Both the position numbers and the translations under genes were made by a program. Positions 25,499 to 42,157 of a stretch of 64,000 bases of DNA are shown piece by piece (positions within the stretch are counted from its first letter, which is position 1; each line of letters starts with the position of its first letter). Where the stretch lies: NCBI GenBank assembly GCA_016210495.1, contig JACQUC010000018.1:12887-76886 (forward strand). The letters run 5' to 3'. The notes under the pieces were generated by a model. It worked only from the letters and a program-made list of their open reading frames with translations, searched no databases and was not told the DNA's origin. The DNA is from Chloroflexota bacterium (GTDB taxonomy: Bacteria > Chloroflexota > FW602-bin22 > JACPRP01).

Positions 25499-27469
25499 TC
25501 AAACAGTTGACTGGGCGAACTGCCGCACGCTATCGGCTTGATCCGGGAAGGCAAAACGCCCGGCTACGAGTAGCCTGGCGCACGCTTCTGCCGCCTGGGC
25601 GTCGTACAGAGTGCCCTTGTTCAGCGTGATTTCCTCCAGTGCCTTGTCCACGCCGAGCGCCGGCCGGTACGGGCGATGAGAGGCCATAGCTTCCGTCACG
25701 TCTGCGATGGCCAGGATACGCGCTTCCAGAATGATATCTCCGTCGACAAGGCCCAAAGGGTAACCAGAGCCGTCCAGCCTCTCGTGATGCTGAAGCACGA
25801 TATCGGCAATCGGCCAGGGGAAATCTATGGACTTCAGGATGTCATAGCCCACCCGGGAGTGAGCTCTGATGAGCTTCTTTTCTACGTCGTTGATTGCGCC
25901 GGGCTTGGCGAGTATCTCGGTGGGTACACACATCTTGCCGATGTCGTGGACTGCCGCGGCCAGTCGCGTGGCGTAGGCCCGGTCGTCTGACAGGCCCATC
26001 TCACCGGCGATGGCGCAGGCTAATTCGGCGACCCGCCGCTGGTGGCCCGCAGTGTACGGGTCGCGTATTTCGACTGTCAGCGCCATGGCGTGGATGGTTT
26101 CTTCCAGGGTCTTGCGCAGCTTCTCGACGCTCTGGAGACGTTCTTGCTGCGCTTGCTTGCGCTCGAGGTATGCCACCAGAGTTTCGGATGCGGTGCGGAG
26201 CAACCGCACGTCCTCCTCGGGCCAGGCCCTTGCACCCTGAATGTCGTCGAAACCGAGAAACCCGAGCGGTCCACCGGTCGAAGACATTGGCACCACGGCC
26301 AGGGACTTGATATCCTGCGCCTGGAGGATATCGCGCTCGTTCGCAGCTTCGTCAGGCAACGCCGCCACGTCCGGGATGATGATGTTTTCGTTGCGTATTA
26401 CCTTGTCCATCCACCAGGGGAAAACCGATGAGTCGAGATTCTGTAGCATGTGAATCTGGGGCTCGACTCCTCGAGCACACCACTCGTGGGTGTTATCCAT
26501 CGTCTTCCCGCCATCCCTGAGCTGGAAGATATAGGCACGGCTGGCGTTGACGACCTCTGCCAGGGTCGACAGCACGCCGACGAGGTCTACCGTGTCTCCC
26601 CTGGCAAGGTTGCTGGATACCCTGGCGAGCGCCTCCTCCACCGCGAGACGACGCTCCAGGGCCGCCTCGGTTCTCTTGCGCTCGGTGATATCCTTCACCA
26701 CCGCGACGAACGCCCAGGCCTTGCCCTCCGCGTCCAGGACTGGCGAAATACTGGTCTCGGCAGGGAATGCAGCGCCGTCCCTCCTGATGACGGTGTATTC
26801 GATATCTCGGAGGCATCCTATTTGCAGAATCCTGCGACTGTTGTTTATTGCGCGCTCGCGGTCCTCGATCGCCACAAACTCCATCATCTTCTTCCCCAAC
26901 AGCTCTCGTGCGCTCTCCGCACCGTACAGGGCGACGGCTCTGTGGTTGCACATGATGATTGCGCCGTCTAGGTTGCTCACAACTATGCCGTCCGGTGACG
27001 TCTCGACGAGGGTGCGATAGCGCTCCTCGCTCTCGCGCAGCGCCGCCTCTCCCTGTTCCCGACGTTCCGCACTTTCGGAAACCATCTTTCGGAGGGCGGC
27101 CGTGCGCATTTCCCGCCGAATGGCGGGGCCCAGTCGTGCTAGATTCGTCTTCTCTACATAGTCGTCCGCGCCTGCCTTCATAGCCTCCAGGGCCACATCT
27201 TCGCGATTCCTGCTAGCCATGAGGATGAAGGGCAGGTCGAGACCGCTCTCCTTCAAGAGCCTCAAAGCCGCGAAGCCGTTGAACCGGGGCATGGCGTAGT
27301 CGGAGATGACGACGTCCCAGGCTCCATTGTCGAGGGCTGCTTTCATGGCCTCCGGATTGTCCACCCATTCGGAAATCACGTGGAAGCCGGTCTTCTGGAG
27401 CTGGCGCTGCAGTAGCCGCACGTCATCTTCCGAGTCCTCGACGATCAGGGCGCGAAGAGGCGCAGGCAT
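25499..27469 (-). CDS. Receiver-PAS-GAF-HD-GYP c-di-GMP phosphodiesterase
   Basis: A 656-residue soluble regulator. Receiver domain (1-125; 'ALIVEDSEDDVRLLQRQLQK', Asp in 'WDVVISDYAMP'), coiled linker, PAS (about 150-270), GAF (about 290-430), and HD-GYP (about 450-620). 'VHDIGKM' is the metal-binding HD, and 'HHERLDGSGYPLGLV' contains the GYP signature, so it should hydrolyse c-di-GMP. It lies just upstream of the end of the gas-vesicle cluster on the same strand. Confidence 0.92.
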   Translation of the reverse strand: MPAPLRALIVEDSEDDVRLLQRQLQKTGFHVISEWVDNPEAMKAALDNGAWDVVISDYAMPRFNGFAALRLLKESGLDLPFILMASRNREDVALEAMKAGADDYVEKTNLARLGPAIRREMRTAALRKMVSESAERREQGEAALRESEERYRTLVETSPDGIVVSNLDGAIIMCNHRAVALYGAESARELLGKKMMEFVAIEDRERAINNSRRILQIGCLRDIEYTVIRRDGAAFPAETSISPVLDAEGKAWAFVAVVKDITERKRTEAALERRLAVEEALARVSSNLARGDTVDLVGVLSTLAEVVNASRAYIFQLRDGGKTMDNTHEWCARGVEPQIHMLQNLDSSVFPWWMDKVIRNENIIIPDVAALPDEAANERDILQAQDIKSLAVVPMSSTGGPLGFLGFDDIQGARAWPEEDVRLLRTASETLVAYLERKQAQQERLQSVEKLRKTLEETIHAMALTVEIRDPYTAGHQRRVAELACAIAGEMGLSDDRAYATRLAAAVHDIGKMCVPTEILAKPGAINDVEKKLIRAHSRVGYDILKSIDFPWPIADIVLQHHERLDGSGYPLGLVDGDIILEARILAIADVTEAMASHRPYRPALGVDKALEEITLNKGTLYDAQAAEACARLLVAGRFAFPDQADSVRQFAQSTV

Positions 27470-27621: not shown

Positions 27622-27936
27622 TTATTGAAGTGAGGTTGCTATCCGCTGCTCGATGCGGTCAAGGCGTGCTTTGAGCGATTCGGACTCTTCCTCGAGTTTC
27701 TTGGCGCGGGAAGAAAGGGCAGGGTCAGACTGCCACCAATCGATGCCCATTTCCAGGGCCTTGTCGACCGAGGCGATCAGCAGCCGTACCTTTATGTTCA
27801 AGAGCTCGATCTCGGCCAACGAGATCGTGATGTCGCCGGCGATGACGATCCCCTTGTCCAGCACCCGCTCGAGGATGTCGGCCAGGTTCGTCGTCTGGAT
27901 GGCGCTGACGATGCGTTGGTTGTGTCCGTTATCCAA
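27622..27936 (-). CDS. GvpA/GvpJ-family gas vesicle protein with coiled-coil tail
   Basis: A 104-residue protein with the GvpA-like core '[20 protein letters not shown]', then 'ISLAEIELLNIKVRLLIASV', and a charged helical tail (about 70-104) absent from the main GvpA. Tails like this are seen in GvpJ and GvpM, minor proteins of the vesicle tip or nucleus. Start is TTG 27936 behind AAGGAGG. It is the last gene of the gas-vesicle cluster. J versus M cannot be decided from sequence alone. Confidence 0.85.
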   Translation of the reverse strand: MDNGHNQRIVSAIQTTNLADILERVLDKGIVIAGDITISLAEIELLNIKVRLLIASVDKALEMGIDWWQSDPALSSRAKKLEEESESLKARLDRIEQRIATSLQ

Positions 27937-27971
27937 TTCTACCTCCTTTGCGGTCGCCGCATCCGCTGCCC

Positions 27972-28382
27972 CTACATCAGATCGCCCAGCGGCCCTAGGT
28001 TCAGATTGAGGTCCTCGTCTTGCAGGCCGAAGGCCAGCTTGAGCTCGGCCATCTTCCGCTCGAGTTTGATGAATGTCTCGCCCATCCGCTCGATCTGCTC
28101 GTCGCTGAGGGAGCCCGCCTCGATGCGCCGGATGGCCTGCTTCTCCAGGAGCCGTCTGACGAGCTCTATCAGGGTCAGCACCAGCTTGGCCAGGCCCTGC
28201 TCGACGTGCGCCTGATCGGCGTTGATGCGCTGCGGCAGTGTGCCCTGCAACCGTGAGAGCTGCTGTGCGAAGTCGCCTAACTCTGCGAGATCGCCGCTTA
28301 GTCGCGGATCCGCATCGGCTCCCCAGGCGGCAAGGTGCTCCTGGGCGAGGACGGCAATCGAGTCGGACAGTTGATCGTTCAC
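27972..28382 (-). CDS. gvpK: Gas vesicle protein GvpK
   Basis: A 136-residue, mainly helical GvpK: 'GLAKLVLTLIELVRRLLEKQ', 'AIRRIEAGSLSDEQIERMG' and the 'KLERKMAELKLAFGLQDEDL' end are family hallmarks. GTG 28382 overlaps the stop of the preceding gvpF (GTGA). In model clusters GvpK is an assembly factor. It precedes the last GvpA/J-like gene by 35 bp. Confidence 0.93.
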   Translation of the reverse strand: MNDQLSDSIAVLAQEHLAAWGADADPRLSGDLAELGDFAQQLSRLQGTLPQRINADQAHVEQGLAKLVLTLIELVRRLLEKQAIRRIEAGSLSDEQIERMGETFIKLERKMAELKLAFGLQDEDLNLNLGPLGDLM

Positions 28383-29347
28383 CTGTGTGCCTTCTCGGTG
28401 TGGCCACTTACACCGGCCCAAAGCAATCTACCCAGAGTGGCCAGAGAAGTGGCCGAGGTATCGGTAGCCGCTGCCAACGCGCCCTCTGGCGGCGTGACAA
28501 AGCTGTACGGAGGCCACGGCCCGGTCAAGAGAAATCGTAGCTCGGGCCTGGCGAGCCGCACTAGTTCGAATGCGTTCCGAAAAGCTCCGATCCGCCGGGG
28601 CTCCAATAGATAAGCCATACGAAGCGCCAGGCGTGGGATAGGAAGCACCCTATGTTGGCTTGCCAGGATGTGTTCCCGGAAGGCGGCGTCCAACTCCCGC
28701 GCCAGCGCATTGGCTTGCGATTGCATTAGGGATTGTTGTCGGTCTTCGGCCAGGCGAGCCATCAGGTAGCGGGTGCCGGGGCCAACGTCTGCCGCCGTCT
28801 CACCCGCCGCGCCCGTGCCCGCACCCGCACCTGCGGCACCCGTAGCCGCACCCTTCAGGGTGCGCGGGGCCGTTTGGGGCGCGACCGAGCCTGTTGGCAG
28901 GAGGCATTCATCATACGAAGGGCCCCGCGCACCCTGAAGGGTGCGGCTACAAGTACGGCTACGGGTCGCGCAGTCAGGGAGGGTCTGCTCCGCATCCCAG
29001 AGCACCGTGAGGCCCAGCTCCACCTTGCCGCCCAGGCGGGCCAGGTCGTCTACGAGGACGCTGTAGCGCTCGGTGATGGATGAGGCTACGGCGCCGGGAT
29101 CGGAAAGGACTGTACCGAACCGCGCCGGGAGCGCCGGACCGGCGCGGCATAGGGCCTCGACGACGGCCTCGTGGTGCAGCAGGTTGTCGGGCGTGGGCTG
29201 AAGCCGCGCGTCGTCGACGTAGCAGGCCGCCGCCGCGAGAGCGCGCCAGGGAATCGAAAACAGGCTGGCGCGGGCGACGCCGGCCAGCCCCGTCGGCAAT
29301 ATGGCCTCCCGCTGCACAATGGCGTAAATGTAACAAGCGCTAGGCAT
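28379..29347 (-). CDS. gvpF: GvpF/GvpL-family gas vesicle protein with an in-frame repeat insertion
   Basis: A 322-residue GvpF/L protein. The N-terminal domain opens 'MPSACYIYAIVQREA' with 'ALPARFGTVL', and the C-terminal domain ends 'LTGPWPPYSFV', as in all members. Typical members are 230-280 residues. Here about 60 residues between 'DAEQTLPDC' and 'LMARLAED' are encoded by a palindromic element with 30-bp perfect arms (28842-28950) plus a Gly/Ala-rich stretch. The start at 29347 overlaps the stop of the upstream GvpA-like gene. F and L are not separable by sequence. Function: accessory in vesicle nucleation and chaperoning of GvpA. Confidence 0.88.
   Translation of the reverse strand: MPSACYIYAIVQREAILPTGLAGVARASLFSIPWRALAAAACYVDDARLQPTPDNLLHHEAVVEALCRAGPALPARFGTVLSDPGAVASSITERYSVLVDDLARLGGKVELGLTVLWDAEQTLPDCATRSRTCSRTLQGARGPSYDECLLPTGSVAPQTAPRTLKGAATGAAGAGAGTGAAGETAADVGPGTRYLMARLAEDRQQSLMQSQANALARELDAAFREHILASQHRVLPIPRLALRMAYLLEPRRIGAFRNAFELVRLARPELRFLLTGPWPPYSFVTPPEGALAAATDTSATSLATLGRLLWAGVSGHTEKAHR
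28842..28950. repeat. Perfect 30-bp inverted repeat inside gvpF
   Basis: The left arm 28842-28871 begins GTAGCCGCACCCTTCAGGGT. The right arm 28921-28950 is its exact reverse complement, and they are separated by 49 bp. Each arm itself contains the hairpin CACCCTgaAGGGTG next to GGCTAC, the motif found singly at 15926 and 18213. The whole is in frame and adds coding sequence without stops. Confidence 0.85.
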
Positions 29348-29555
29348 CGATAGCTCCGGGAGCACGATCGAGACCCCAACGAAGTCGCTCGGCGCGCTCC
29401 ACCGAGGCGAGCATGACTTTTAGCCCGACGAAGATAAGGTCCACGTCGGCGACAGAGATCGTTATGTCGCCCGCCAGGACCACCCCCTGGTCGAGGAGAC
29501 GGTCGAGCAGCTCGAGCATGGTAATGTCCTTGGCCTCGGCGGCAGCACGTGTCAT
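29340..29555 (-). CDS. GvpA/GvpJ-family gas vesicle protein, short
   Basis: A 71-residue GvpA-like protein: 'MLELLDRLLDQGVVLAGDIT', 'ISVADVDLIFVGLKVMLASV'. The 'AGDITIS' segment is shared with the 27622 gene and differs from 'VDAWVRLSL' of the main GvpA, so both belong to the minor J/M/S type. It lies between two GvpF/L genes and overlaps both. Confidence 0.85.
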   Translation of the reverse strand: MTRAAAEAKDITMLELLDRLLDQGVVLAGDITISVADVDLIFVGLKVMLASVERAERLRWGLDRAPGAIDA

Positions 29556-30397
29556 CGGTTGCCTCCCTCCTCGATCCGGGCGAAGCTATAGGGCGGCCAG
29601 GGGCCGCTGTACTGGCAACGTAGCCCCGCGTGGGCCTCGGCGAAGAAGCGCACCTCCTCGATGAACACCTTCACCTGCGGTCGTGAGACGAGAAAGGCGG
29701 CGCGTAGTATCTCAGCTTGCACACGAACTGTGCCCGCACGGGGGCCCACCTGGCTGGCGACGGCCAGGCGTGACAGGTGGTCATAGCACGCCTGCGCTAG
29801 ATCGCTCAAGGCCTGCTCGGTGGCAGCGGCCAGGAGGTCCGCCAGCTTGTGCTGCAGAAAGTAAGCCCGGCCGGGGCGCGCGGCGGCCAGCTCCTCCTTG
29901 AACTGGCGAACGGCGGGAGCCTCGTCTGCGACGCGCCGCTCCACGATGGCACGGTCGGCGTAGGCGTGGACTCCCCATTCGTCGCAGCCGTGCAGGCGAT
30001 CCAGTTGCTCCGCCAGGGTGTCGTAGGTGCGCTCCAGCGCGGCGATCACCTCGTCTGCGCGGCCGTAGACGCAGCCGAACCTCGCCGGCAGGATGCCGTG
30101 GTCCTGCTGCACGAGCTCGGCCACGCGCTCGTGCCCGCGCACCATCGCCTCGAGCCACGCCATATCTTGCAGGTGTGCTCGAACGGCCTCGGGGCCGAGC
30201 TCTGCCAGGCGCACGGGGCTGACGACGGCCGCGACCTCACGGTAAGCAAGCGCCTGCACCGGCTTGCCGCCGTCCAGGCCAGGTCCGACACCCAATGCGG
30301 CCAGGCCCGGGCGAGTCCGCCGGGTGATCCCGTAGAGGTACCAACCCCAGCCCTCGGCCAGGGCGAAGCTCGGAGCATCAACCAGCGGCTGCGGCAA
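29552..30397 (-). CDS. gvpL: GvpF/GvpL-family gas vesicle protein
   Basis: A 281-residue GvpF/L protein. 'GWGWYLYGITRRTRPGL' opens the first domain, 'GILPARFGCVYG' is the conserved strand, 'AAFLVSRPQVKVFIEEV' belongs to the second domain, and 'YSGPWPPYSFARIEEG' closes it. No ATG is in frame near the N-terminus. TTG 30397 gives the expected start and overlaps the end of gvpG. Its own stop overlaps the next GvpA-like start (ATGA). Confidence 0.9.
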   Translation of the reverse strand: MPQPLVDAPSFALAEGWGWYLYGITRRTRPGLAALGVGPGLDGGKPVQALAYREVAAVVSPVRLAELGPEAVRAHLQDMAWLEAMVRGHERVAELVQQDHGILPARFGCVYGRADEVIAALERTYDTLAEQLDRLHGCDEWGVHAYADRAIVERRVADEAPAVRQFKEELAAARPGRAYFLQHKLADLLAAATEQALSDLAQACYDHLSRLAVASQVGPRAGTVRVQAEILRAAFLVSRPQVKVFIEEVRFFAEAHAGLRCQYSGPWPPYSFARIEEGGNR

Positions 30398-30731
30398 CCT
30401 GGTGCGTCTCCTCTCTTGCTTGGTCGTGAGGCTCCTCCGTAGTCGCGTACATGCCGTTTCCGCCAGAGGACTCATCTGCGGCGGCCAGGGACTCCTTGTA
30501 CTCGCGGATGGCATTCAGTCGTTCCAGGAGCGCCGCCTCCTGGGCGTAATAAACGTCGTCGGGAATCTCCCCAAAGTCGTGGCGCAGGCTGAGGGCGACC
30601 AGCTCATCCTCGACGAGGCCCTCGTCGAGCTGCTCGGCGTCGACTCGCTCTTTGATCTGGTCGAAGACGAATAGCAAGCCCTTGGCCGGACCAGTGACCG
30701 GGAAGAGCAGCAGACTGCTGAGCAAACCCAT
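30378..30731 (-). CDS. gvpG: Gas vesicle protein GvpG
   Basis: A 117-residue GvpG: 'LLLFPVTGPAKGLLFVFDQI' and 'LDEGLVEDELVALSLRHDFG', followed by 'EIPDDVYYAQEAALLERLNA', are the family core. The last 30 residues are a polar tail. GvpG binds GvpF/L proteins in studied systems, and here it stands between two GvpF/L genes, with a 3-bp gap upstream and 20 nt overlap downstream. Confidence 0.93.
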   Translation of the reverse strand: MGLLSSLLLFPVTGPAKGLLFVFDQIKERVDAEQLDEGLVEDELVALSLRHDFGEIPDDVYYAQEAALLERLNAIREYKESLAAADESSGGNGMYATTEEPHDQAREETHQVAAAAG

Positions 30732-30734
30732 GAT

Positions 30735-31526
30735 CTAATCCTCCTGCCAATGAACGACGATGTTGACGAAGTTGTAGGGGGGCAATGGCCCCGCATACTT
30801 GAAGATCGAGCGACCCGCCTGGGCCTCGTCGAGGGCGTTGACCGTGGCATCGAACTCCTTCTCGTGGGCCCTCTCCACCAGAAACGCCGCGTTCAAGATC
30901 ATAATGTCGGTGAGGATCTTGTTCACCCTCGTCTGTACGGCAAGGGGCCGCACTGCCTCCAAGATCGCCTCGGCCTCGGCATCGCGCTTGCGGATGATGG
31001 CCTCCTCGGTGAGCTGGCCAAGCTGGATGCGCTGGTAGTGGGTCTCGTCGGGCGATCTGCCGGCGATGTTGTCGCGAAGGGCGCGGATGCGCCCGTCTTC
31101 GGCGGCGATCTCGGCGAAGAGCCTGTCCCGACTCCAGAAAACCTTGAGCCCCAGCTCCTCGCGATCGCCAACGTATAGCATTAGCTGGTGAAACTCGCCG
31201 AACTTGCGCTTGAGCAGCTTCTCTTGTACCGCCTGAGGGTTGCTGGCGACTGTGCCGAAGCGCACGGGTAAGACCGCCGAGCGGGTCATTGCCTCCTCGA
31301 TGACGAGCTGATGCGCCATGGTGTTCTCGCGAGCGATATCATAGCGGGCGACCGGTGAATCGCTTACGACGGCGGCCAGGTCCATAAAATGGATCGTGTA
31401 GAGCGTGTTCCCTTTTCCCCCTACGGGTACCGCTCGAAACGGGGGTGCGCCATTCTCGAAGGGCTCGCTTTGGACGATGCAGTAGACATAGGTGTAGGCG
31501 CTAGACGACGGCGGCGTCGCGCTCAT
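30735..31526 (-). CDS. gvpF: GvpF/GvpL-family gas vesicle protein
   Basis: A 263-residue GvpF/L of normal length and architecture: 'YTYVYCIVQSEPF', 'AVLPVRFGTVASNP', 'ILNAAFLVERAHEKEFDATV', 'YAGPLPPYNFVNI'. ATG 31526 follows GGAGGTAGCAT and overlaps the end of the upstream GvpF/L-J gene by 26 nt. It is the most canonical of the four GvpF/L copies in the cluster. Confidence 0.92.
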   Translation of the reverse strand: MSATPPSSSAYTYVYCIVQSEPFENGAPPFRAVPVGGKGNTLYTIHFMDLAAVVSDSPVARYDIARENTMAHQLVIEEAMTRSAVLPVRFGTVASNPQAVQEKLLKRKFGEFHQLMLYVGDREELGLKVFWSRDRLFAEIAAEDGRIRALRDNIAGRSPDETHYQRIQLGQLTEEAIIRKRDAEAEAILEAVRPLAVQTRVNKILTDIMILNAAFLVERAHEKEFDATVNALDEAQAGRSIFKYAGPLPPYNFVNIVVHWQED

Positions 31527-32604
31527 ATGCTACCTCCGAAGGAGAGATGGGTTGCTGGCTAGACCGCCTGATGGTCATTAGGAGCGCTGTGTCGACGGCG
31601 CTAGGTGACAGATCGTAGCTCCGGCTTTCGGTGGCCGGAGCTTCGTCCGTATGCTGGCCGTGCAAATAGGCGACGACCTGTGCGTGGGCGGCGGTAAGGA
31701 TGGCGAACCGCTGCGTGGCCGTGGGGTCGCCCGGGTTTCGGTCGGGATGACAACGCACCGCCAGGCGTCGATAGCTGGTGTTCACCTCCACCTCCGAGGC
31801 GTTATCGCCAAGCCCCAACAATCGGCGCGCCGCTTCGACGAGCTCGGGCCGGGGCCGCGACACCTCGACGGTGGCGAAGCTGTAGGGCGGGAGCGGCCCG
31901 ACGCATCGGAAGTTGAGCCGGCTGCCAAATGCCTCGTCAAGTCGGTGCACGCGCGCATAGAACTCGTCGAGACGTCCCCGCTCGACGAGAAAGGCTACGT
32001 TGAGGACCAGTTCGTCCGATGGTAGCGGGTTCGGCTGTGCATCACGGCAGATGGGCACCAGGTCGCATTGCACCTGCTGGCGATACCGCTCGCGACGGCG
32101 GTCAAGGGCTTCCTTTACGAGCTTGCCGACCTGCACACGTGTGGCCACGGTCTCGTCGGCAGGGCGGCCGGCAACGCTGGCGGCGAGAGCGGCGATGGTT
32201 GGCTCGCGAGCGACCTCCCCGAAGGTCTGCGGGAGGTCCCAGGTGGCCGCGACCTCGATCTCGACGCCACCGCCCATGCGGTGCAGGGTGGCGGCCAGCC
32301 GATGATGCCAGCGGTCGAGGATGGTCACCAGCTCGTCGGTCGAGCCGAGCACCGTGCCGAACTTCGCGGGGAGCGTGGGTTGGTGCTCCATCGCCCGCTC
32401 GATGACGCGCTGGTGGATGGCGAGACAGCGCAGAAGCTCCGCCTTGGGGAGATCGGCAAAAGCCGGCCCATCGTAGTCGCTGACGACGGCGGAAAGACCG
32501 TCGACGGGCAGCGTCCAGACATGCGCCCAGCCATCTGGCTGCCCGATCTCGCCAAGGTCGAGGCTACGGTCTCCGGCCATGATTCCGTAGAGATATACTG
32601 CCAT
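31501..32604 (-). CDS. GvpF/GvpL fused to a C-terminal J-domain
   Basis: A 367-residue protein. Residues 1-245 are a full GvpF/L ('MAVYLYGIMAG', 'TLPAKFGTVLG', 'NVAFLVERGRLDEFYARV', 'CVGPLPPYSFATVEV'). A DnaJ-type J-domain follows: 'ARRLLGLGDNASEVEVNTSY', 'RRLAVRCHPDRNPGD' with the catalytic His-Pro-Asp, and a fourth helix 'FAILTAAHAQVVAYL'. The last 50 residues are disordered. The HPD motif implies that it can recruit Hsp70 (DnaK) to vesicle assembly. ATG 32604 was preferred to the GTG nine codons upstream because AAAGGAG precedes it. Confidence 0.9.
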   Translation of the reverse strand: MAVYLYGIMAGDRSLDLGEIGQPDGWAHVWTLPVDGLSAVVSDYDGPAFADLPKAELLRCLAIHQRVIERAMEHQPTLPAKFGTVLGSTDELVTILDRWHHRLAATLHRMGGGVEIEVAATWDLPQTFGEVAREPTIAALAASVAGRPADETVATRVQVGKLVKEALDRRRERYRQQVQCDLVPICRDAQPNPLPSDELVLNVAFLVERGRLDEFYARVHRLDEAFGSRLNFRCVGPLPPYSFATVEVSRPRPELVEAARRLLGLGDNASEVEVNTSYRRLAVRCHPDRNPGDPTATQRFAILTAAHAQVVAYLHGQHTDEAPATESRSYDLSPSAVDTALLMTIRRSSQQPISPSEVAYERDAAVV

Positions 32605-32655
32605 TTTGCGTTTCGCTCCTTTCTGGGACACCCTTACACCGGCAGGGTCTCGCTA

Positions 32656-34800
32656 TCAAGGCCCCACAAACGAGCTGGCGCGCAGGGCGGTTAGCGCCTC
32701 GTCGAAGTGACGCTGCTCGATTGTAAAGGGCGCGTACTTGGCGCCCGGCTCCAGCTCGATCGACTCGCGGATGGCAAGCATCGCGGCACGCCGGCACAGC
32801 GCCTCAAGGTCAGCGCCGACCATCCCTTCCGTTTGCTCCGCCAGGCGCTCCAGGTCTACCTCTTTGGAGAGCGGGCGGCCACCGGTGTGGACGGCCAGGA
32901 TGGCCCGGCGGGCGTCTGCCTCCGGTATCGGCAGCTCGACGGTGAAGTCGAAGCGTCCGGGCCGCAGTAGCGCGGGATCGATGATATCCGGCCGATTGGT
33001 GGCGCCGAGCACGATGACGCCCCGTAGCTCCTCGATGCCGTCTAGCTCGGTGAGAAACTGGCTCACCACCCGCTCGCTCACGTGCGTGTCGCCCCCACCC
33101 CCGCCGCGCGTAGGGACCAGCGCGTCGATCTCATCGAAAAAAACAATGCACGGCGCCGTCTGGCGCGCCTTCTTGAACACCTCGCGTACGCCTTTCTCCG
33201 ATTCCCCGACCCATTTGGAGAGGAGCGCCGGCCCCTTGATCGAGATGAAGTTGTCCTCGCTTTCCGAGGCGACGGCCTTGGCGACTAGCGTCTTGCCGGT
33301 GCCCGGAGCGCCGGTGAGGAGCACGCCCTTGGGCGGAGCCGTCCTGGCGTAGGCGAAGCGGTCGCTGTACTTGAGCGGCCACTCGACGGCCTCGCGCAGC
33401 AGGCGCTTGACCTCGTGGAGTCCTCCCACCTGATCCCACTTGACGTCGGCGACCTCGGTGAACACCTCGCGGATGGCCGATGGCTCGATCTCGTTCAACG
33501 CCTCCAGGAAGTTGTCCATGGTGACCTCGAGCCGCAAAAGGTCCTCGTAGGGGAGCTGCGCCTGGCCGAAGTCGATTGCCGGTAGCGCTTTGCGCAGGCA
33601 GCTCATAGCCGCCTCTCGGCAGAGGGCGGCCAGGTCCGCGCCGACGAAGCCGTGGGTGATCGCGGCGAGGCGCTCGAGGTCGACGTCTTCGCCAAGGGGC
33701 ATGCCCCGCGTGTGAATCTGGAGAATCTCCAGCCGACCCGTCTTGTCGGGCACGGAGATAACTATCTCCCGATCGAAGCGGCCGGGACGGCGTAGCGCCG
33801 GGTCGATGCTGCCGGGGATGTTCGTCGCGCCGATGACGACTACCTGCCCCCGCGACTTGAGTCCGTCCATCAGGGCCAGCAACTGGGCGACGACCCGCTT
33901 CTCGACCTCGCCCTGGACGGCCTCGCGCTTGGGAGCGATGGCGTCGATTTCGTCCAGGAACACGATGCTTGGCGCCTGTCGTTCGGCGTCCTGGAAGATG
34001 CTTCTGAGGTGTGCCTCGGATTCGCCGTAGAACTTGTGGATGACCTCGGGGCCAGCCACGTGGATGAAATGGGCGGCGGTCTCGTAGGCGACCGCCCGGG
34101 CGATAAGCGTCTTACCACAGCCCGGTGGGCCGTAGAGCAGAACGCCCTTGGGTGGGTCGATGCCCAGACGCTCGAATACCTCGGGATAGCGGAGGGGCAG
34201 CTCGATCATCTCGCGAATGCGCGCGATCTCCTTCGAGAGGCCGCCGACGTCCTCGTAGGATACGGCCGGTCCGGGGCGCTCGGCGGGCGCGACCTCGCCC
34301 TTGATACGGATCGTCGTCGTACCATTTACCAGGACGACGTCGCTGGGGGAGGTCTCGCTGACGATGCAATCGAGCGGACGTGTGCCAAAAAGGTTGACGC
34401 GCACGCGGTCGCCGACGAGAAGGGGCACCGATTCCAGCAGTCGTCCCAGATAGCGGGTATCCTGGCTGCGGAGCGCTGTGTGGCCGTTGCCACTGGGCGC
34501 GAGGGTGATGGTTCGGGCCTGTTGATGCGATGCCTTACGTACCTGCACCCGGTCGTCGAGGCCCACCTGCGCGTTCTGGCGGGTAATGCCGTCGATCTGG
34601 ACGAGCTCTTTGCCCCGCTCGGCTGCGTAGGCCGGCATAAGCCGGGTTGCCGTCCGCCGTTTGCCCACGACCTCGACGATGTCGCCAATGGACGCACCCA
34701 GTTGCTCGATGTCGGCTGGGTCGAGACGCGCGATCCCCCTTCCGACATCCTTGGGTAGGGCTTCGGCGACACGCACGGTCAGCGCACGATCATCGTTCAT
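32656..34800 (-). CDS. Cdc48/p97-type AAA+ ATPase
   Basis: A 714-residue protein: N-terminal double-psi barrel (about 1-180; 'LPKDVGRGIARLDPADIEQL'), then two AAA domains. D1 has Walker A 'GPPGCGKT' (about 225) and Walker B 'IVFLDEIDAIAP'. D2 has 'GAPGTGKT' (about 500) and 'IVFFDEIDALVP'. A hexameric unfoldase of this type could remodel or dismantle vesicle proteins. It sits inside the gvp operon between the Hsp20-like and GvpF/L-J genes. The last residues 'FVGP' and the stop come from the short repeat GTGGGGCCTTGAT. Confidence 0.93.
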   Translation of the reverse strand: MNDDRALTVRVAEALPKDVGRGIARLDPADIEQLGASIGDIVEVVGKRRTATRLMPAYAAERGKELVQIDGITRQNAQVGLDDRVQVRKASHQQARTITLAPSGNGHTALRSQDTRYLGRLLESVPLLVGDRVRVNLFGTRPLDCIVSETSPSDVVLVNGTTTIRIKGEVAPAERPGPAVSYEDVGGLSKEIARIREMIELPLRYPEVFERLGIDPPKGVLLYGPPGCGKTLIARAVAYETAAHFIHVAGPEVIHKFYGESEAHLRSIFQDAERQAPSIVFLDEIDAIAPKREAVQGEVEKRVVAQLLALMDGLKSRGQVVVIGATNIPGSIDPALRRPGRFDREIVISVPDKTGRLEILQIHTRGMPLGEDVDLERLAAITHGFVGADLAALCREAAMSCLRKALPAIDFGQAQLPYEDLLRLEVTMDNFLEALNEIEPSAIREVFTEVADVKWDQVGGLHEVKRLLREAVEWPLKYSDRFAYARTAPPKGVLLTGAPGTGKTLVAKAVASESEDNFISIKGPALLSKWVGESEKGVREVFKKARQTAPCIVFFDEIDALVPTRGGGGGDTHVSERVVSQFLTELDGIEELRGVIVLGATNRPDIIDPALLRPGRFDFTVELPIPEADARRAILAVHTGGRPLSKEVDLERLAEQTEGMVGADLEALCRRAAMLAIRESIELEPGAKYAPFTIEQRHFDEALTALRASSFVGP

Positions 34801-34857
34801 GTTGTCGGGTCTACCATCCTTCCCATTATCCCCTTTGCGCCCTTGGCGGTTTGCGCA

Positions 34858-35418
34858 CTACTTGGGCTGCGACCGCCCCGCTTTGTTCAGTCTGATCTCC
34901 AGGACGCCGTTCTGATAGCTTCGTTGGAGACTCGCCGGATCAACCATCGCCGGCAGCAGAAGCTCCTTGGCATACTTGCGATCCTGGCTCTTGGCGCTCA
35001 GGGTCAGAATGTCGTCCTTGGCCTCGACGGCGATATCTCCCTCGGCCACGCCCGGTAGCTCGACCACCACCAGAATGTGGTCGCCCTCGTCGAAAATATC
35101 TGTGAGGGGCTCGCGCACCTCCGAGACCTCGGGGCCGCGTTCGGTCGACCGGATGTTGCCGAAGCGTTCGATAGTGGGCGTGCCGCCCAACCCCATCTTG
35201 ACGGAAAACCCGTAAACGCCGCGCATGCCACTTGGCCCGTGCACCTCTCGCGTCTCGCTGATCTCGGACTTGCCCTCCTCGGCCATCTTGCCCACCAGAT
35301 CCATGAAGTTCCCCAGTCCCTTGAAGAGCTCCCCGAATCCGAGATCGACGTGTATCCCGGCGTCATCTGGCCGGTGCGGACCACGCGGCGTTGGGCGTGG
35401 CCGGCGTTGCTCAGGCAT
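34858..35418 (-). CDS. gvpH: Hsp20-like gas vesicle protein (GvpH type)
   Basis: A 186-residue protein whose second half is an alpha-crystallin/Hsp20 fold: 'REPLTDIFDEGDHILVVVEL', 'PGVAEGDIAVEAKDDILTLS', and a C-terminal strand 'YQNGVLEIRLNKAG'. The first 90 residues contain the 'GELFKGLGNFMDLVGKMAEE' helix typical of GvpH and not of ordinary Hsp20. Start ATG 35418 follows GGAGGAGAAAG. Likely a chaperone that keeps hydrophobic GvpA soluble. Confidence 0.88.
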   Translation of the reverse strand: MPEQRRPRPTPRGPHRPDDAGIHVDLGFGELFKGLGNFMDLVGKMAEEGKSEISETREVHGPSGMRGVYGFSVKMGLGGTPTIERFGNIRSTERGPEVSEVREPLTDIFDEGDHILVVVELPGVAEGDIAVEAKDDILTLSAKSQDRKYAKELLLPAMVDPASLQRSYQNGVLEIRLNKAGRSQPK

Positions 35419-35504
35419 AGTTCTTTCTCCTCCCTGGGTGTCCTCTCATCCCGCCTCATCGGGACATCTTCATAACACCCGATATTCTGTACGCCACGTA
35501 GGCG

Positions 35505-35798
35505 TCAGTATTCCAGCGTTACCTGGCGCCATGCTGTCCGCGGTCTGTTGACCTTTTCCTCGACGATCAAGCTAGGGGCAAACGCGCGCAGGTTCTCCAT
35601 TTGTTGTTCGAGCTCGATGAGCCTCTTCTCGATGCGATCCTTCTTGCGCTGCCAGAGCTCGACCTCTCGCTCGAGGCGAAGCTTCTCACTAGCCAGGCGG
35701 TGAAGCTGAAGGAAGACGGCGCCTTCGCTCGTGGGAATGGCGCGCGTGGCGACGCTGCGTAGCGAGCGAATGTCGTGCATCGTCTTCGGGCCGGCCAT
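35505..35798 (-). CDS. gvpV: GvpV-like gas vesicle protein
   Basis: A 97-residue protein: 'KTMHDIRSLRSVATRAIPT' followed by a long coiled coil, 'LHRLASEKLRLEREVELWQR', 'KKDRIEKRLIELEQQMENL'. Cyanobacterial GvpV has the same plan (an 'IHTIKSRRA..T' start, then a charged helix of 50-60 residues), which is the basis of the name. ATG 35798 follows AAGGAGGGACT. It lies between gvpN and gvpH. The role of GvpV is not established. Confidence 0.7.
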   Translation of the reverse strand: MAGPKTMHDIRSLRSVATRAIPTSEGAVFLQLHRLASEKLRLEREVELWQRKKDRIEKRLIELEQQMENLRAFAPSLIVEEKVNRPRTAWRQVTLEY

Positions 35799-35842
35799 AT
35801 AGTCCCTCCTTTCAAGTCCCATCCGGCGCCCGCGCCGGTCAA

Positions 35843-36805
35843 CTAGGCACGTCGGGGCAGACTGATGACGCCTCGTGGCGCCTCAGACGAGCAATGCTGC
35901 CGAATCAGATCGAGGACGGCGTCACGTCGGCGTGGTGCCTTCCTCGCCAGCTTGTTGGGCCGATTTGGCTCGGCGGCCAGAACGTCCAGGCAGGTTTGCT
36001 CGAAGACAGGGTCTTCCGAAACGGCCAGGGCGCCGCGCAGGGCGAGCACTTTGCCAATCATAATGCAACTGCGGATGGTGGGGCCGGAATTGGCGAGGCC
36101 CGTCTCGCGGTAGGCGCGCACCAGGTCGACGATCCGCTCGGCATCCTCGCGAGGGATGCAGGAGCGCGCTTCCGTGATCGCCAATTCGGTTTCGTGGTCG
36201 AAGTAATCGAGGTCGATGGTGACCATCCGATCCCGTAGCGCGTCCTGGGTTTTGTGCACCCCGGCGTAATCCTCGGGGTTCGAGGTAAAGATGGCGGCGA
36301 AATTGGGGTGTACCTTCAAGTAGCTGGTGCCGTTCCGGCTGGCCGGCAGCACAAGCACCTTTTCCTCCAGGATAGACAGCAGCACGTTGTTGGCTTCCGG
36401 CCGAGAACGCGTGAACTCGTCGTAGATCAAAGTAAGGCCCTCGCGGCAAGCGATCGTCAGGCGGTTATCGATCCAGCGCTGGGCAACGTCCTCTTCGGTT
36501 TTAAGCACGGAGTGGACGAAGTTGTCGATGACCTTGCGGCGTCGGTAGCCGGCCTGGCCGCCTACGAGGTCCGAGGTGCCGAACTCGTCGTCGCCGCAGA
36601 TCAGCATCATCGGCCGGCCGAGGTTGTGTGCGATGTGCATGGCCAGGGTGGTCTTGCCCGAGCCGGAGGGCCCGCGGAAGTGCACGGGGAAGCCCGCCGC
36701 AACGTAGGCCAGCGCCCGCTCGGTGAGATCGCGGACGAAAGTCGTCTCGACGAAGCCGGATCGAGGCCGAGCCGCGAGCACAGCCGTGGCATCAGTTCTC
36801 GTCAT
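35843..36805 (-). CDS. gvpN: Gas vesicle AAA+ ATPase GvpN
   Basis: A 320-residue MoxR-class AAA+ ATPase: Walker A 'FRGPSGSGKTTLAMHIA', 'GDDEFGTSDLVGGQAGYRRR', Walker B 'LTLIYDEFTRSRPEANNVLL' and sensor 1 'FAAIFTSNPEDYAGVH', all typical of GvpN. It helps vesicles grow, probably by acting on GvpA with GvpC. ATG 36805 follows GGAG. The upstream gene is the GvpC-like protein, from which it is separated by a strong stem-loop. Confidence 0.94.
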   Translation of the reverse strand: MTRTDATAVLAARPRSGFVETTFVRDLTERALAYVAAGFPVHFRGPSGSGKTTLAMHIAHNLGRPMMLICGDDEFGTSDLVGGQAGYRRRKVIDNFVHSVLKTEEDVAQRWIDNRLTIACREGLTLIYDEFTRSRPEANNVLLSILEEKVLVLPASRNGTSYLKVHPNFAAIFTSNPEDYAGVHKTQDALRDRMVTIDLDYFDHETELAITEARSCIPREDAERIVDLVRAYRETGLANSGPTIRSCIMIGKVLALRGALAVSEDPVFEQTCLDVLAAEPNRPNKLARKAPRRRDAVLDLIRQHCSSEAPRGVISLPRRA

Positions 36806-36842
36806 ACTGTCATCTCCTTCGGTTTCCTATGACCTGTGTGAT

Positions 36843-36873
36843 CCCGACCGCCGCACAACGTGCGGCGGTCGGG
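36843..36873 (-). terminator. Stem-loop between the gvpC-like gene and gvpN
   Basis: CCCGACCGCCGCA (36843-36855) and TGCGGCGGTCGGG (36861-36873) form a perfect 13-bp stem with a 5-nt loop, directly after the gvpC-like stop. There is no U-tract, so it probably attenuates or protects the mRNA rather than fully terminating. Confidence 0.7.
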
Positions 36874-36882
36874 TGCCGATAG

Positions 36883-37920
36883 CTAGGTGGCAAAGTAGAG
36901 CTTTAGCTCCTCGTCCTTGCGCGCCTTGTTCTGCTCGATGAGCCGGGTTATTGTCGGCACCAGGCGGATACGCGGGGTACCGAAGTGCGCCTCGAGCTCG
37001 ATGAGCCGGACTCCGTCCGGATGATCGGCGAGATAGCTGAAGACGTCCTCATCCGATGGTGCTTCTTGCGCCTGGGCGCGGGTCTGGGGTGGCGCGTGAG
37101 GCGCGGATGGCGACGCCTTGGCCGCCTTGGTCGGCGCCGGCTTGGCCTCGGGCGGGGGCGGGCTGGGTGCTATGCCAGCCCGGCGCGCCTGCATGACGTT
37201 GGCGAAGTTCTGCCAAGCGTGGCTGAACTGGGCCAGGTCTGCGGCGAGCTCCTGGCGTGCCGAATGGAACCCCGCCAGCGTGGCCGACACCTGGGCGTGC
37301 AGGGCCGCCTGTCCGGCCTCTAAGGACTCGCGCTGCGCTTTGGCCATTGCCGAATGGGCGGCGCTGGCCTCGCCAAGGAAATTGGCCGTCTCGAGCTTTA
37401 GCTTGGCGTTGGTCTCGGCCAGGTTCTCGCGTTGCGCGTCAGCCATGTTCGCGTGGGCCTGCTGGATGTTACTCATCAGGTCACTGAACTGCTGAATGAA
37501 GTCGACTCGCTCCCGATGGAGCTCCGCCTTCAGCGCGGCCTCCCCGGCGGCGCGGTTGGCTTGAACTTCACGCATCGCGCGCTGGGTTTGCGCGCGCATT
37601 TCATCCACCTCAGGCCGCCGGTCGGCGGTGGCTTTGGCCAGGGACGAGCTTTGCGCGGCAGCCATCTCTGCGCGTTCGCGCGACAGGTCGGCAACCATGC
37701 CGGAAACAGCCGCGGTTCTGGCGGTCTTGCAGTCCGCCAGTTCCCTGTGGAGCTCCGCGGCTTCCTCCATGCGGGCAGCGTGACGCTCGACGATCCTCTG
37801 GCGGTTCTCCTTCATACCATTGGCCACGTTGGCCCGTCGAGCGGCGATATTGGCCATACGCTCGTCGTGTGAGCGCACAAGATTCTCAGTCAGGCTACGC
37901 ATGTCGGCTACTCTGGACAT
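36883..37920 (-). CDS. GvpC-like helical gas vesicle protein with a C-terminal winged helix
   Basis: A 345-residue protein. Residues 1-240 are long charged helices with loose repeats of about 35 residues. Each begins near 'L..EL..ER..F...' (for example 'AALKAELHRERVDFIQQFSD', 'AALHAQVSATLAGFHSARQE'). A Pro/Ala-rich linker (about 245-285) leads to a winged-helix end, 'DVFSYLADHPDGVRLIELEA' and 'HFGTPRIRLVPTITRLIEQN'. Position after gvpA and repeat structure suggest the GvpC role, strengthening the shell from outside, but the wHTH tail is unusual. ATG 37920 follows AAGGAGGTGATAAG. Confidence 0.72.
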   Translation of the reverse strand: MSRVADMRSLTENLVRSHDERMANIAARRANVANGMKENRQRIVERHAARMEEAAELHRELADCKTARTAAVSGMVADLSRERAEMAAAQSSSLAKATADRRPEVDEMRAQTQRAMREVQANRAAGEAALKAELHRERVDFIQQFSDLMSNIQQAHANMADAQRENLAETNAKLKLETANFLGEASAAHSAMAKAQRESLEAGQAALHAQVSATLAGFHSARQELAADLAQFSHAWQNFANVMQARRAGIAPSPPPPEAKPAPTKAAKASPSAPHAPPQTRAQAQEAPSDEDVFSYLADHPDGVRLIELEAHFGTPRIRLVPTITRLIEQNKARKDEELKLYFAT

Positions 37921-37967
37921 TCTTATCACCTCCTTTCGTAGGCTCGCCGGCAAGGCAAGCGCAAATT

Positions 37968-37995
37968 GGGGCGGTCCGCCTAAGGCGGCCGCCCC
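37968..37995 (-). other. Hairpin in the gvpA-gvpC spacer
   Basis: GGGGCGG-T-CCGCC and GGCGG-C-CGCCCC pair around a TAA loop, about 50 bp before the start of the gvpC-like gene. It may affect mRNA stability between the two shell genes. Confidence 0.5.
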
Positions 37996-38159
37996 GACGG
38001 ATGCCGAATCAGTTCTCGAATAGATCGGAAAGAATCAAGCGTGGAACTGTGAGCAGCGCCAGAGCGACAAAACCCTGGAGCCTGCTGGTGCTCCGTCTGC
38101 CCCACTCTCGTGCGCGTGCCACCACCGGAGAGGAGGGGCGGAGTTTACGCCGATTCACT

Positions 38160-38189
38160 TAGCGAAGCCGGCCTTCGCCGGCTTCGCTA
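38160..38189 (-). terminator. Strong stem-loop directly after gvpA
   Basis: TAGCGAAGCCGGC and GCCGGCTTCGCTA form a perfect 13-bp stem with a 4-nt loop, beginning 8 bp after the gvpA stop. No U-run follows, so it is a likely partial terminator or 3' stabiliser that makes gvpA mRNA more abundant than the downstream genes. Confidence 0.75.
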
Positions 38190-38196
38190 ATCGGAG

Positions 38197-38415
38197 CTAA
38201 GCCGCGGGCGCGGCGGCCGCAGCGGTGAGTCCGATCGCCTCGGCGTATTTGAGGTAGGTCTCGACGGAGGCCACGACGACGCGGGCCTCGAGGGCGAGAA
38301 TCTCGATGCCGACGAGGGACAGTCTTACCCAGGCATCGACCACGATGCCCTTGTCCAGAACGCGGTCGACGACCTCTACCAGGCTCGACGAGCCAATTGC
38401 CTTCTCGACTGCCAT
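38197..38415 (-). CDS. gvpA: Major gas vesicle structural protein GvpA
   Basis: A 72-residue GvpA: '[20 protein letters not shown]' and '[20 protein letters not shown]', then '[14 protein letters not shown]', the most conserved gas-vesicle sequence known. It forms the ribbed wall of the hollow, gas-permeable vesicle. The tail of Ala/Pro is short. First gene of the 14-gene cluster, with a structured leader upstream and a strong stem-loop downstream. Confidence 0.96.
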
Positions 38416-38728: not shown

Positions 38729-38756
38729 GTGGGGCCTCGATTCATCAAGGCCCCAC
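38729..38756. repeat. GTGGGGCCTTGAT palindrome at a kinase gene end
   Basis: GTGGGGCCT (38729-38737) and AGGCCCCAC (38748-38756) form a 9-bp stem with a further GAT/ATC pair. The minus-strand reading supplies the last codons and stop (V-G-P-stop) of the kinase, as at the end of cdc48. Confidence 0.75.
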
Positions 38757-40094
38757 GTGGTTCTCGTCTGCGAACAGCGGCACCTCGACGTGTACCCGCG
38801 TTCCGCTACCCCGGTCGCTGAAGATCTGAAAGCTTCCTTGGAGCAGCTCGGCGCGCTTGCGCATACTAAGCATTCCCACACCCATCCGATGTGGGTCACG
38901 CTGCAAGGCGTACGGGTTGAAGCCAACGCCGTCGTCTTCCACTTCGACTACAGCGCGGCCGTGCTCCTGCTTGATACGAACTTTTACCCTCTTGGCGTGG
39001 GCGTGCTTGGTTACGTTGTTGACGGCTTCCTGCACGATCCGGTACAGCGCGGTCTCGACGGCTTTGGGAAATCGTACCTGGTCGGCGTCAAAATCGACTC
39101 GCCAGCCCGTGCGGGCCTGAAGCTCGTTCATCTGATACTGCAGGGCCGCAACCAGGCCGAGCGTATCCAACGTCGTCGGACGCAAGTTGGCGATTACATC
39201 GCGAGCCTCGCGTCCGGCGTTGCGGACAAGCGTGCTTGCCTTATGTAGGCTGCCACGCAGGTCGTCCGGGAGCTCGGGCCGGTTGTCCAGAGTCTGGAGG
39301 TAGTGAAAGGCGCCCGCCAGTGTCTGGGCGACCCCATCGTGGATCTCCAAGCAGATGCGCTCTCGCTCCTCCTCCTGAGCATCGATGGTCTTTTTGAGCA
39401 GAAGGCTGACTTGCTGCTCCCGGTTGCGCAAATCCTGGTGAAGACGGACGTTCTCGACCGCGATTGCCGCCCACGCGCCGAAGAGCGAGAGTATCGGCAG
39501 CGTCGACGAAGTGATGGCTTGGGAAGGAGATGAGGCGACTATCAGCACCCCTAGGCATCGCTCCGCGGCTATGAGGGGTACCAGTGCAAGTGCCTTTATA
39601 TCCAGGGCGCGTTGCACGACGGCCGCTACCTTGGCTTGGAGGTGCGGCCGCAAGACGTCGTGGAAGCGCGATGTGATGAACGGGCTGCGCTCGAGAAAGG
39701 CGCGGACCACGAGATTGTCTGTCATATCCAGCCGGTAGCCGATAGCATCCTGCGGGATGGAGCTGCTTCCTGCGACGGGGCGGGCTGCTAAGCGGCGGTC
39801 GACGCGGAGTCCCAGCAAGCTATCAAGTCGGACTCCGGACCGCTGGGTGGCGCTGCTCAGCTTGTATCGAGTCGCCGGGCTAGAGATTACCTTGCCAACC
39901 AGGCGCTCTCCCTGTGCGTCGAGGAGTGCTACGGAGGGGTACGCGCACGCCAGACCCTCGGAGCAACCTTCGAGCACGCCGCACAGCACGTCCTCCAGGT
40001 TTCCGGTGCGAGTGACCGCTGTGGACACGCGCTGAAGAGCGTTGATGAGAGGTTGGTGCAGGATAAGCTCGGCCTGCTCGCTGGGCACTGGCAC
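38745..40094 (-). CDS. NarX-type cytoplasmic sensor kinase (GAF-HisKA_3)
   Basis: A 449-residue soluble kinase. GAF domain (about 35-215), coiled linker, HisKA_3 with 'AQEEERERICLEIHDGVAQT' (phospho-His in IHDG, near 260), and HATPase with 'VVEVEDDGVGFNP' and 'GMLSMRKRAELLQG'. Such kinases phosphorylate NarL/FixJ regulators; one is encoded at 41355-42017. A close relative lies at 45046-46434. The last three residues (VGP) come from a dispersed repeat. Signal unknown. Confidence 0.9.
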   Translation of the reverse strand: MPVPSEQAELILHQPLINALQRVSTAVTRTGNLEDVLCGVLEGCSEGLACAYPSVALLDAQGERLVGKVISSPATRYKLSSATQRSGVRLDSLLGLRVDRRLAARPVAGSSSIPQDAIGYRLDMTDNLVVRAFLERSPFITSRFHDVLRPHLQAKVAAVVQRALDIKALALVPLIAAERCLGVLIVASSPSQAITSSTLPILSLFGAWAAIAVENVRLHQDLRNREQQVSLLLKKTIDAQEEERERICLEIHDGVAQTLAGAFHYLQTLDNRPELPDDLRGSLHKASTLVRNAGREARDVIANLRPTTLDTLGLVAALQYQMNELQARTGWRVDFDADQVRFPKAVETALYRIVQEAVNNVTKHAHAKRVKVRIKQEHGRAVVEVEDDGVGFNPYALQRDPHRMGVGMLSMRKRAELLQGSFQIFSDRGSGTRVHVEVPLFADENHVGP

Positions 40095-40161: not shown

Positions 40162-40398
40162 TCAAATGCCGTCGGCGGTGAGATACTGCTCCAGGGCCAT
40201 ACGCACGATGCCTGATACGCTCACGTGCTTGCGGCGTGCAGCTATCTTGGCTCGCCGGAGCAGGTCGTCGCTCAGATAGATATTGCGCCGCTTGCCCGTC
40301 GAGGTGTCCGGAAGTGCCTTGGCGTCCAGCCGATCGGTGTAGTCGACTTTGAGAACCCGGCCGATGACCTCTTCGTCGATCTTGACCCGGCGTGTCAT
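40162..40398 (-). CDS. Ribbon-helix-helix protein paired with ParA
   Basis: A 78-residue protein ending in an RHH fold: 'KRRNIYLSDDLLRRAKIAAR', 'RKHVSVSGIVRMALEQYL'. The first 35 residues are acidic and flexible. ATG 40398 overlaps the stop of the upstream ParA gene, so it is the partner of that ATPase, likely the DNA- or cargo-binding ParB/ParG-like adaptor. It resembles the protein at 42894-43112 in plan, though the sequences are diverged. Confidence 0.85.
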   Translation of the reverse strand: MTRRVKIDEEVIGRVLKVDYTDRLDAKALPDTSTGKRRNIYLSDDLLRRAKIAARRKHVSVSGIVRMALEQYLTADGI

Positions 40399-41174: not shown

Positions 41175-41289
41175 CTGCCCCTCCTTGCCATCCGCTCGGG
41201 AAATCAAGATTCGTGACCAGGCCTCTGTGGTATTCTACTCGTGGCAGGCAAGGCCGTCAAGGAGTTGGCATCTCAGTTGGGCAAAGCCG

Positions 41290-42139: not shown

Positions 42140-42157
42140 GGACGAGGGGTGGTGTGG

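Follow-up and report, generated by a model that had tools for sequence, protein, structure and literature searches.

How the hydrophobic shell protein GvpA is kept soluble and placed into a gas-filled shell is, in the accessible gas-vesicle literature, a standing question. In haloarchaea, split-GFP work as reported in PMC9501494 sees GvpF as the one strong partner of GvpA, Halobacterium GvpH may hold GvpM in solution (PMC6107691) and an EMBO J study proposes that GvpN readies GvpA for insertion (PMC11445434). Work on Streptomyces lists gvpF and dnaJ as separate stress genes (PMC2631018), and the main gas-vesicle (gvp) operon of Streptomyces coelicolor is described as heat-inducible (PMC2687793). 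Here we analyse a window of 64 kb (the whole stretch of DNA studied, from contig JACQUC010000018.1 of a Chloroflexota bacterium), which carries on its minus strand a complete gvp cluster of 14 genes (window 27622-38415, by Pfam and NCBIfam matches) with genes for an Hsp20 protein, a Cdc48-like unfoldase and a GvpF/L protein fused to a J-domain. The cluster resembles cyanobacterial and haloarchaeal ones in its gvpA-gvpC-gvpN order and in its GvpF/L, GvpG, GvpK and GvpJ-type genes, and haloarchaea also have an Hsp20-like GvpH. It further resembles clusters from several phyla that combine Hsp20 with an extra ATPase (PMC2963123), but the ATPase there is ArsA-like rather than Cdc48, and the term 'DnaJ' is absent from the accessible text of that paper.

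In the open-access literature, as far as its accessible text goes, we found no description of a GvpF/L-J fusion, of gvp-linked DnaK or of gvp-linked Cdc48, though subscription papers may have them. New here is DnaK encoded in related gvp clusters that carry the J-domain; the fusion itself is already annotated in databases, e.g. as 'gas vesicle protein GvpL/GvpF/DnaJ-like protein'.

Results and Discussion

The fusion gene (31501-32604; minus strand, as are all genes of the cluster) codes for 367 residues, with PF06386 on residues 2-244, the DnaJ domain PF00226 on residues 262-308 (E 3.6e-11) and His-Pro-Asp (HPD) at residues 286-288. Its likeliest start is the ATG at 32604, which has a ribosome-site-like stretch, and not the GTG at 32631. 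An AlphaFold2 model based on a 34-row alignment reached a mean predicted local distance difference test score of 90.4; Foldseek matched it to Anabaena GvpF (6l5d, template-modelling score 0.85 by target) and its C-terminal part to the J-domain of DnaK-bound DnaJ (5nro_B, 1.0 A over 50 columns, at a weak E-value of 0.026), and both halves were recovered in a profile search of PDB sequences. Having PF06386 and a GvpF fold on the one hand and a J fold with HPD on the other, the protein belongs to the GvpF/L family as well as to the J-domain proteins, as had been claimed, while Hsp70 stimulation and hence the catalytic role ascribed to the motif are predicted. Both Pfam domains recur in 117 of its 120 best matches (the window itself being one of them), the best named ones among those listed being proteins from Chloroflexi metagenome-assembled genomes (MAGs) with up to 61% identity; HPD and Arg279 are invariant in all 34 aligned rows, which were hand-picked from the 120. 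The domain is like DnaJ/Hsp40 and the DnaK-DnaJ pair (5nro) in its HPD, basic helix II and J fold, and in that DnaK is encoded in many related clusters. Unlike in DnaJ/Hsp40, the J-domain here sits C-terminal to a GvpF/L part, and Pfam gave no further match of the DnaJ type. A short strand motif with a nearly invariant Ile345 also lies close to the end of the protein (window 31501-31650).

The next gene upstream (32656-34800) codes for a 714-residue, double-ring AAA+ unfoldase of the Cdc48/VAT type (TIGR01243, 930.6 bits, cut-off 802.65) with CDC48_N, CDC48_2 and two AAA domains, so the p97-like protein of the preliminary description is a full member of the Cdc48/p97 family. Archaeal VAT is its nearest PDB relative (5g4f, E 3.2e-221), and the two share an N-domain, two AAA rings and aromatic residues in both pore loops (KFYG and KWVG in the window protein, KYYG and KWVG in VAT); unlike archaeal VAT/Cdc48, the window protein is bacterial, encoded in a gvp operon and without an HbYX-like end. 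Tyr258 of the first pore loop is kept in all 65 gvp-linked Cdc48 rows. At the positions that we take to be those of the motifs, all 65 also have lysine in Walker A, Asp-Glu in Walker B and the arginines of the arginine fingers, each in both rings. A C-terminus resembling the proteasome-type HbYX occurs in just one of the 65, the window protein ending in FVGP. Upstream of cdc48, the gene at 34858-35418 specifies a small heat-shock protein of the Hsp20/GvpH type (186 residues; PF00011, 32.7 bits). It clearly fits the NCBIfam model 'archaeal heat shock protein Hsp20' (NF041800, 161.1 bits, cut-off 140) and scores 22 bits with GvpH PF05455, exactly at the cut-off of 22; its earlier label, GvpH, is thus sound as to the Hsp20-like nature and borderline as to the name.

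A genome scan with the 34-row fusion alignment confirmed 132 loci, the best 80 of which (L numbers below; genomes have G numbers) come from 15 named phyla, many being cut by contig ends. Cdc48 is present in 53 of these 80 loci, Hsp20 above 80 bits likewise in 53, and both in 42. Cdc48 frames that reach 300 residues number 52, and for 38 of them the fusion is the next mapped gene downstream. Looked at from the fusion, Cdc48 lies directly upstream in 48 of 84 evaluable rows (90 non-redundant fusion rows, less six with too little upstream DNA), and in the 80-locus part this adjacency is spread over at least nine named phyla. The preliminary description had named absence of Cdc48 and the fused J-domain from the gvp loci of relatives as the finding that would speak against it. 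Both are widely conserved there, and the combination is a widespread type across phyla, not a local oddity, with parts that are intact as judged by sequence.

A second sample, not chosen for the J-domain, was anchored on GvpK and drew on the Chloroflexota (the phylum of L003; 301 genomes, 40 over cut-off), on the phyla of a planctomycete (246 genomes, 14 over cut-off), of L065 (46 genomes, six) and of an actinomycete MAG (246 genomes, 16), and on the class to which L076 belongs (240 genomes, one, the centre itself), G067 and G764 having been excluded beforehand as below cut-off. Complete clusters, taken as those with gvpA, gvpG, gvpK and at least two GvpF/L genes, make up 57 of the 79 loci. 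Among them Cdc48 is present in 20 of 22 with the J-domain vs nine of 35 without (Fisher p 1.5e-6, kinship ignored), and in 15 of 17 vs nine of 35 once the five centre genomes are removed. Hsp20 is found in 24 of 29 clusters with Cdc48 vs one of 28 without it; in other words, 24 have both, 27 neither and six one alone (p 4e-10, kinship ignored). The sample shows two broad kinds of cluster, one with Hsp20 and Cdc48, often together with GvpN and the J-domain, and another without them, which takes in most clusters from actinomycetes and some of those from Chloroflexota and planctomycetes. Cdc48 adjoins GvpF/L genes in J-less clusters too (L122-L124; L187, L190, L192), the latter three, from the planctomycete sample, having it beside two J-less GvpF/L genes. 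On a tree of GvpK, GvpF/L and GvpG, the J-domain changes four times, Cdc48 six and Hsp20 eight times, and in the pairings drawn on it Hsp20 and Cdc48 never go in opposite directions.

In a FastTree phylogeny of Cdc48 with VAT as outgroup, the rows from J-bearing gvp loci cluster strongly (eight label changes vs a shuffled mean of 28.8), and the window protein falls within a fully supported set of six. Since 60 of the 301 Chloroflexota genomes carry CDC48_N over cut-off, the domain is not confined to gvp; among the Chloroflexota matches of at least 82 bits, 25 of 30 are in gvp loci (hand count). In 24 of 31 genomes CDC48_N comes over cut-off in a single gene, and that gene is in the gvp cluster. 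The 31 were hand-picked from the 80 loci, with Cdc48 already mapped in the locus in 30; G012, counted among the 24, has the gene on the gvp contig with DnaK and Hsp20 in between (L179). CDC48_N was found in four of 14 control genomes, all four archaea.

Hsp70, the partner expected of a J-domain, is encoded in related clusters as well. A search of 29 of the genomes was positive in 28, some copies lying inside gvp loci, and DnaK stands beside gvp genes in 22 related clusters (21 that cover 22 loci, L030 and L179 being one contig, plus L238), with L015, L011, L012, L035, L068, L216/L219 and L238 as examples. One further DnaK fragment lies just past L044; the weak Hsp70 matches of L118 and L130 (29 and 26 bits) were rejected as DnaK. 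Within the 80 loci, 16 have DnaK (Chloroflexota 10, Planctomycetota 4, Nitrospirota 1, Auribacterota 1). In most cases DnaK comes after the last GvpA/J gene, often with Hsp20 (and Cdc48) next in line; the open frames of DnaK and the fusion touch in L011 (18 nt) and L015 (0 nt), and in one MAG (L216 and L219, overlapping stretches of one contig) a single cluster unites GvpN, Hsp20, Cdc48, the fusion, DnaK and a second Hsp20. All 19 DnaK clusters with a readable fusion site have a J-fold GvpF/L (14 with HPD, five without), the search with the fusion having supplied most of these loci and L144, L146 and L238 being cut. In the GvpK sample DnaK occurs in five of 22 complete clusters with the J-domain vs none of 35 without (p 0.006), and in four of 17 vs none of 35 with the centre genomes removed (p 0.009). 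DnaKs of sufficient length keep the inspected ATPase residues, whose roles we assume, together with Arg167 (E. coli numbering), which we take to be the arginine in contact with the J-domain, except for Lys in L013; several have a short lid. In the DnaK tree they take three placements, namely a 15-row clade (all gvp-linked counting L238), the pair L011 and L015, and L199. DnaK in J-bearing related clusters supports, at the level of gene content, a step in which the J-domain would recruit Hsp70.

To our minds, there is about an even chance that this gas-vesicle operon, whose type is widespread among bacteria, has its own proteostasis set for the very hydrophobic subunits of the GvpA family, with assembly plus recycling as the direction that we favour. 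Hsp20 would keep GvpA/J subunits from clumping, and GvpF/L-J may bind these subunits via its GvpF-like part, by analogy to haloarchaeal GvpF and GvpA. The J-domain would call Hsp70 to the site, presumably housekeeping DnaK in the lineage of the window and, in many relatives, the DnaK that the gvp cluster encodes. Cdc48, a threading motor of two rings that resembles VAT and has no recognisable proteasome-docking tail, could extract mispacked shell subunits or spent accessory proteins from the growing vesicle or its seed, and the extracted proteins would be reused. A dedicated chaperone-unfoldase line had been suggested before; at the genome level it is well supported, and more strongly so than in the preliminary description because relatives add gvp-linked DnaK, while the order of events (Hsp20 holds, J recruits, Cdc48 extracts) is one that we infer. 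A wider view, to which we would give somewhat less than an even chance, sees a large branch of bacterial gas-vesicle systems in which the operon encodes a full Hsp20-Hsp70-J-Cdc48 machine that serves a single organelle. GvpF/L-J would be its organelle-specific Hsp40, DnaK a gvp-specific subfamily (with one or two recruitments elsewhere) and Cdc48 a motor that mainly dismantles gas-vesicle protein for reuse, without ubiquitin or proteasome. Bacterial Cdc48 gains a likely substrate class. With Hsp70 and a J-domain gene-linked to GvpF/L, one member of whose family is known to bind GvpA, the question of how GvpA is handled becomes testable, and the genes could be tried as a means to raise the vesicle yield of acoustic reporter strains.

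Several observations weigh against a dedicated proteostasis set. Cdc48 is present in nine of the 35 J-less complete clusters and absent from two of the 22 with the J-domain. Trait changes on the gvp tree are few, and independent-pair tests on that tree cannot reach significance, the pairs being too few, so that much of the raw association may be due to shared descent. As 30 of the 31 copy-count genomes were pre-mapped with Cdc48 in the locus, its presence in them proves nothing. The L199 genome has no other clear DnaK, and this one may therefore be a housekeeping gene adjoining gvp, so that we count two or three DnaK recruitments. No DnaK was found in the 64-kb window, nor is there a gvp-linked one in its closest loci (L001-L004, L133; L001 and L004 partial). 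GvpH is reported to be dispensable in Halobacterium (PMC6107691), and the contents given for cyanobacterial and haloarchaeal clusters in the accessible text of PMC9501494 name no Cdc48, J-domain or DnaK. Moreover, HPD is retained in 70 of the 80 genome loci and absent from ten (L013, L019, L020, L021, L027, L031, L035, L054, L057, L060), among which L020 and L021 have no other recognised gvp gene. Five of these ten clusters still encode DnaK, and there is no sign of paired decay of HPD and DnaK Arg167, the arginine being kept in three of four readable HPD-less clusters. In HPD-less fusions, either the J activity may be lost or the domain may retain a non-catalytic docking role. By raw counts, Cdc48 adjoins none of nine evaluable fusions without HPD vs 48 of 75 with it; since the tree has only four HPD changes, few and nested, we make no claim on HPD loss and Cdc48 neighbourhood. 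Together with the J-less clusters that have Cdc48, the HPD-less J-domains mean that the parts are separable.

The same genes could be read as a disposal line, in which Hsp20, Hsp70 and Cdc48 would unfold collapsed or surplus vesicle protein for a protease and so adjust buoyancy. That archaeal VAT, the nearest solved relative, is reported to work with the proteasome (PMC5423775) and that the motor residues of Cdc48 are intact would fit such a role, but the near absence of HbYX-like ends among gvp-linked Cdc48 rows (one in 65) does not, and we consider it unlikely. Seed remodelling, where Cdc48 would dismantle a GvpF/L-G-K-J accessory complex to permit bicone elongation and the J-domain would place Hsp70 so as to free GvpF/L from GvpA, draws on the early complex proposed for GvpF/L, G, K and J-type proteins (PMC9501494, PMC11445434), and on the adjacency of Cdc48 to GvpF/L genes even in the J-less clusters mentioned above. 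Elongation is, however, already tied to another AAA+ protein, GvpN, in the account of PMC11445434, and remodelling of the seed seems to us improbable as the main task.

Finally, the chaperone genes may be mere neighbours by descent, hitch-hiking in one old type of gvp cluster with no vesicle-specific role and with a J-domain that is partly fossil. The small number of trait changes on the gvp tree and the loss of HPD in ten of 80 loci can be quoted in its favour, yet Cdc48 adjoins the fusion gene in no fewer than nine named phyla, DnaK came to lie next to gvp genes on two or three separate occasions and most of the genomes counted (24 of 31) have no Cdc48 copy besides the gvp one. One Cdc48 away from gvp genes, in L168, still has Hsp20 alongside; the MAG in question (G043) carries this pair and its gvp cluster on different contigs. 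Mere neighbourhood strikes us as very unlikely, and the favoured explanation continues to be a proteostasis set of the operon's own, engaged in assembly and recycling.

Organisation of the operon and its surroundings

All 14 adjacent minus-strand genes of the preliminary description were found, in the order gvpA, GvpC-like, gvpN, small coiled coil, hsp20, cdc48, GvpF/L-J, GvpF/L, gvpG, GvpF/L, gvpA/J, GvpF/L, gvpK and gvpA/J, with PF00741 matched three times and PF06386 four times (once with DnaJ PF00226) next to Hsp20, GvpG and GvpK. Neighbouring genes overlap or lie at most 86 nt apart throughout, the sole exception being 276 nt after gvpA. The gene set looks complete, and production of vesicles is predicted from it. 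Main shell protein GvpA (72 residues; 38197-38415; PF00741, E 7.8e-15) is followed by a GvpC-like coiled-coil protein of 345 residues (36883-37920), in which a repeat offset of 33 scores best among offsets 8-69, with none of 500 shuffles reaching its score. Repeats of about 33 residues and a gene between gvpA and gvpN are GvpC traits, those of Halobacterium GvpC being given as 32-40 residues long (PMC9501494); the protein matched no GvpC model in Pfam or NCBIfam, no Pfam family above cut-off and nothing else in NCBIfam or the PDB, so its GvpC-like label stands on repeat and position and finds no model behind it. At its C-terminus (window 36883-37150) a proline-rich linker precedes a stretch that looks winged-helix-like by eye and has no family match. 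The AAA+ ATPase GvpN (320 residues; 35843-36805; TIGR02640, 361.7 bits, cut-off 266.8) is followed, as in many relatives, by a small coiled-coil protein (105 residues; 35505-35822) which had been called gvpV-like; the label holds by position, and no Pfam or NCBIfam family came above cut-off.

Downstream of the fusion lie a GvpF/L gene (263 residues; 30735-31526; PF06386, E 9e-69), whose product tops the four GvpF/L proteins with the cyanobacterial GvpF model NF052351 (119.2 bits, below the cut-off of 350), and gvpG (117 residues; 30378-30731; PF05120, E 1.6e-14). The latter is overlapped by 137 nt by the third GvpF/L open reading frame (29552-30514; PF06386, E 2.4e-59), which has an uncertain start and up to 320 residues. 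A minor GvpA/J gene (71 residues; 29340-29555; PF00741, E 3.4e-16), the fourth GvpF/L gene (328 residues; 28379-29365; PF06386, E 1.4e-46) and gvpK (27972-28421, start uncertain; PF05121, E 1.1e-33) come next. The last gene, again a minor GvpA/J (27622 to about 27936), probably begins at a TTG behind what by eye is a ribosome-site-like stretch, inside a longer open reading frame (27622-28407) on which its PF00741 match (E 5.1e-17) was scored.

Promoter-like sites show no excess (two vs a shuffle mean of 1.5), terminator-like ones are fewer than in shuffles (three vs 6.6), and no RNA families or tRNAs were found in the window. A plasmid origin was rejected because comparison with the plasmid collection gave no near match; among plasmid proteins the one most like the fusion is GvpL/GvpF of Octadecabacter arcticus, 36.7% identical over residues 54-314 and spanning the J region. 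Two candidate regulators flank the operon on the same strand, a GAF histidine kinase upstream (38745-40094) and a receiver-PAS-GAF-HD protein downstream (25499-27469). Elsewhere, the window codes for two closely spaced ParA-like ATPases (40395-41207 and 42149-42907), one of which adjoins a ribbon-helix-helix protein, for a heavy-metal P-type ATPase (52719-54848) and for a protein that joins a solute-binding domain to a von Willebrand A domain (57887-59566).

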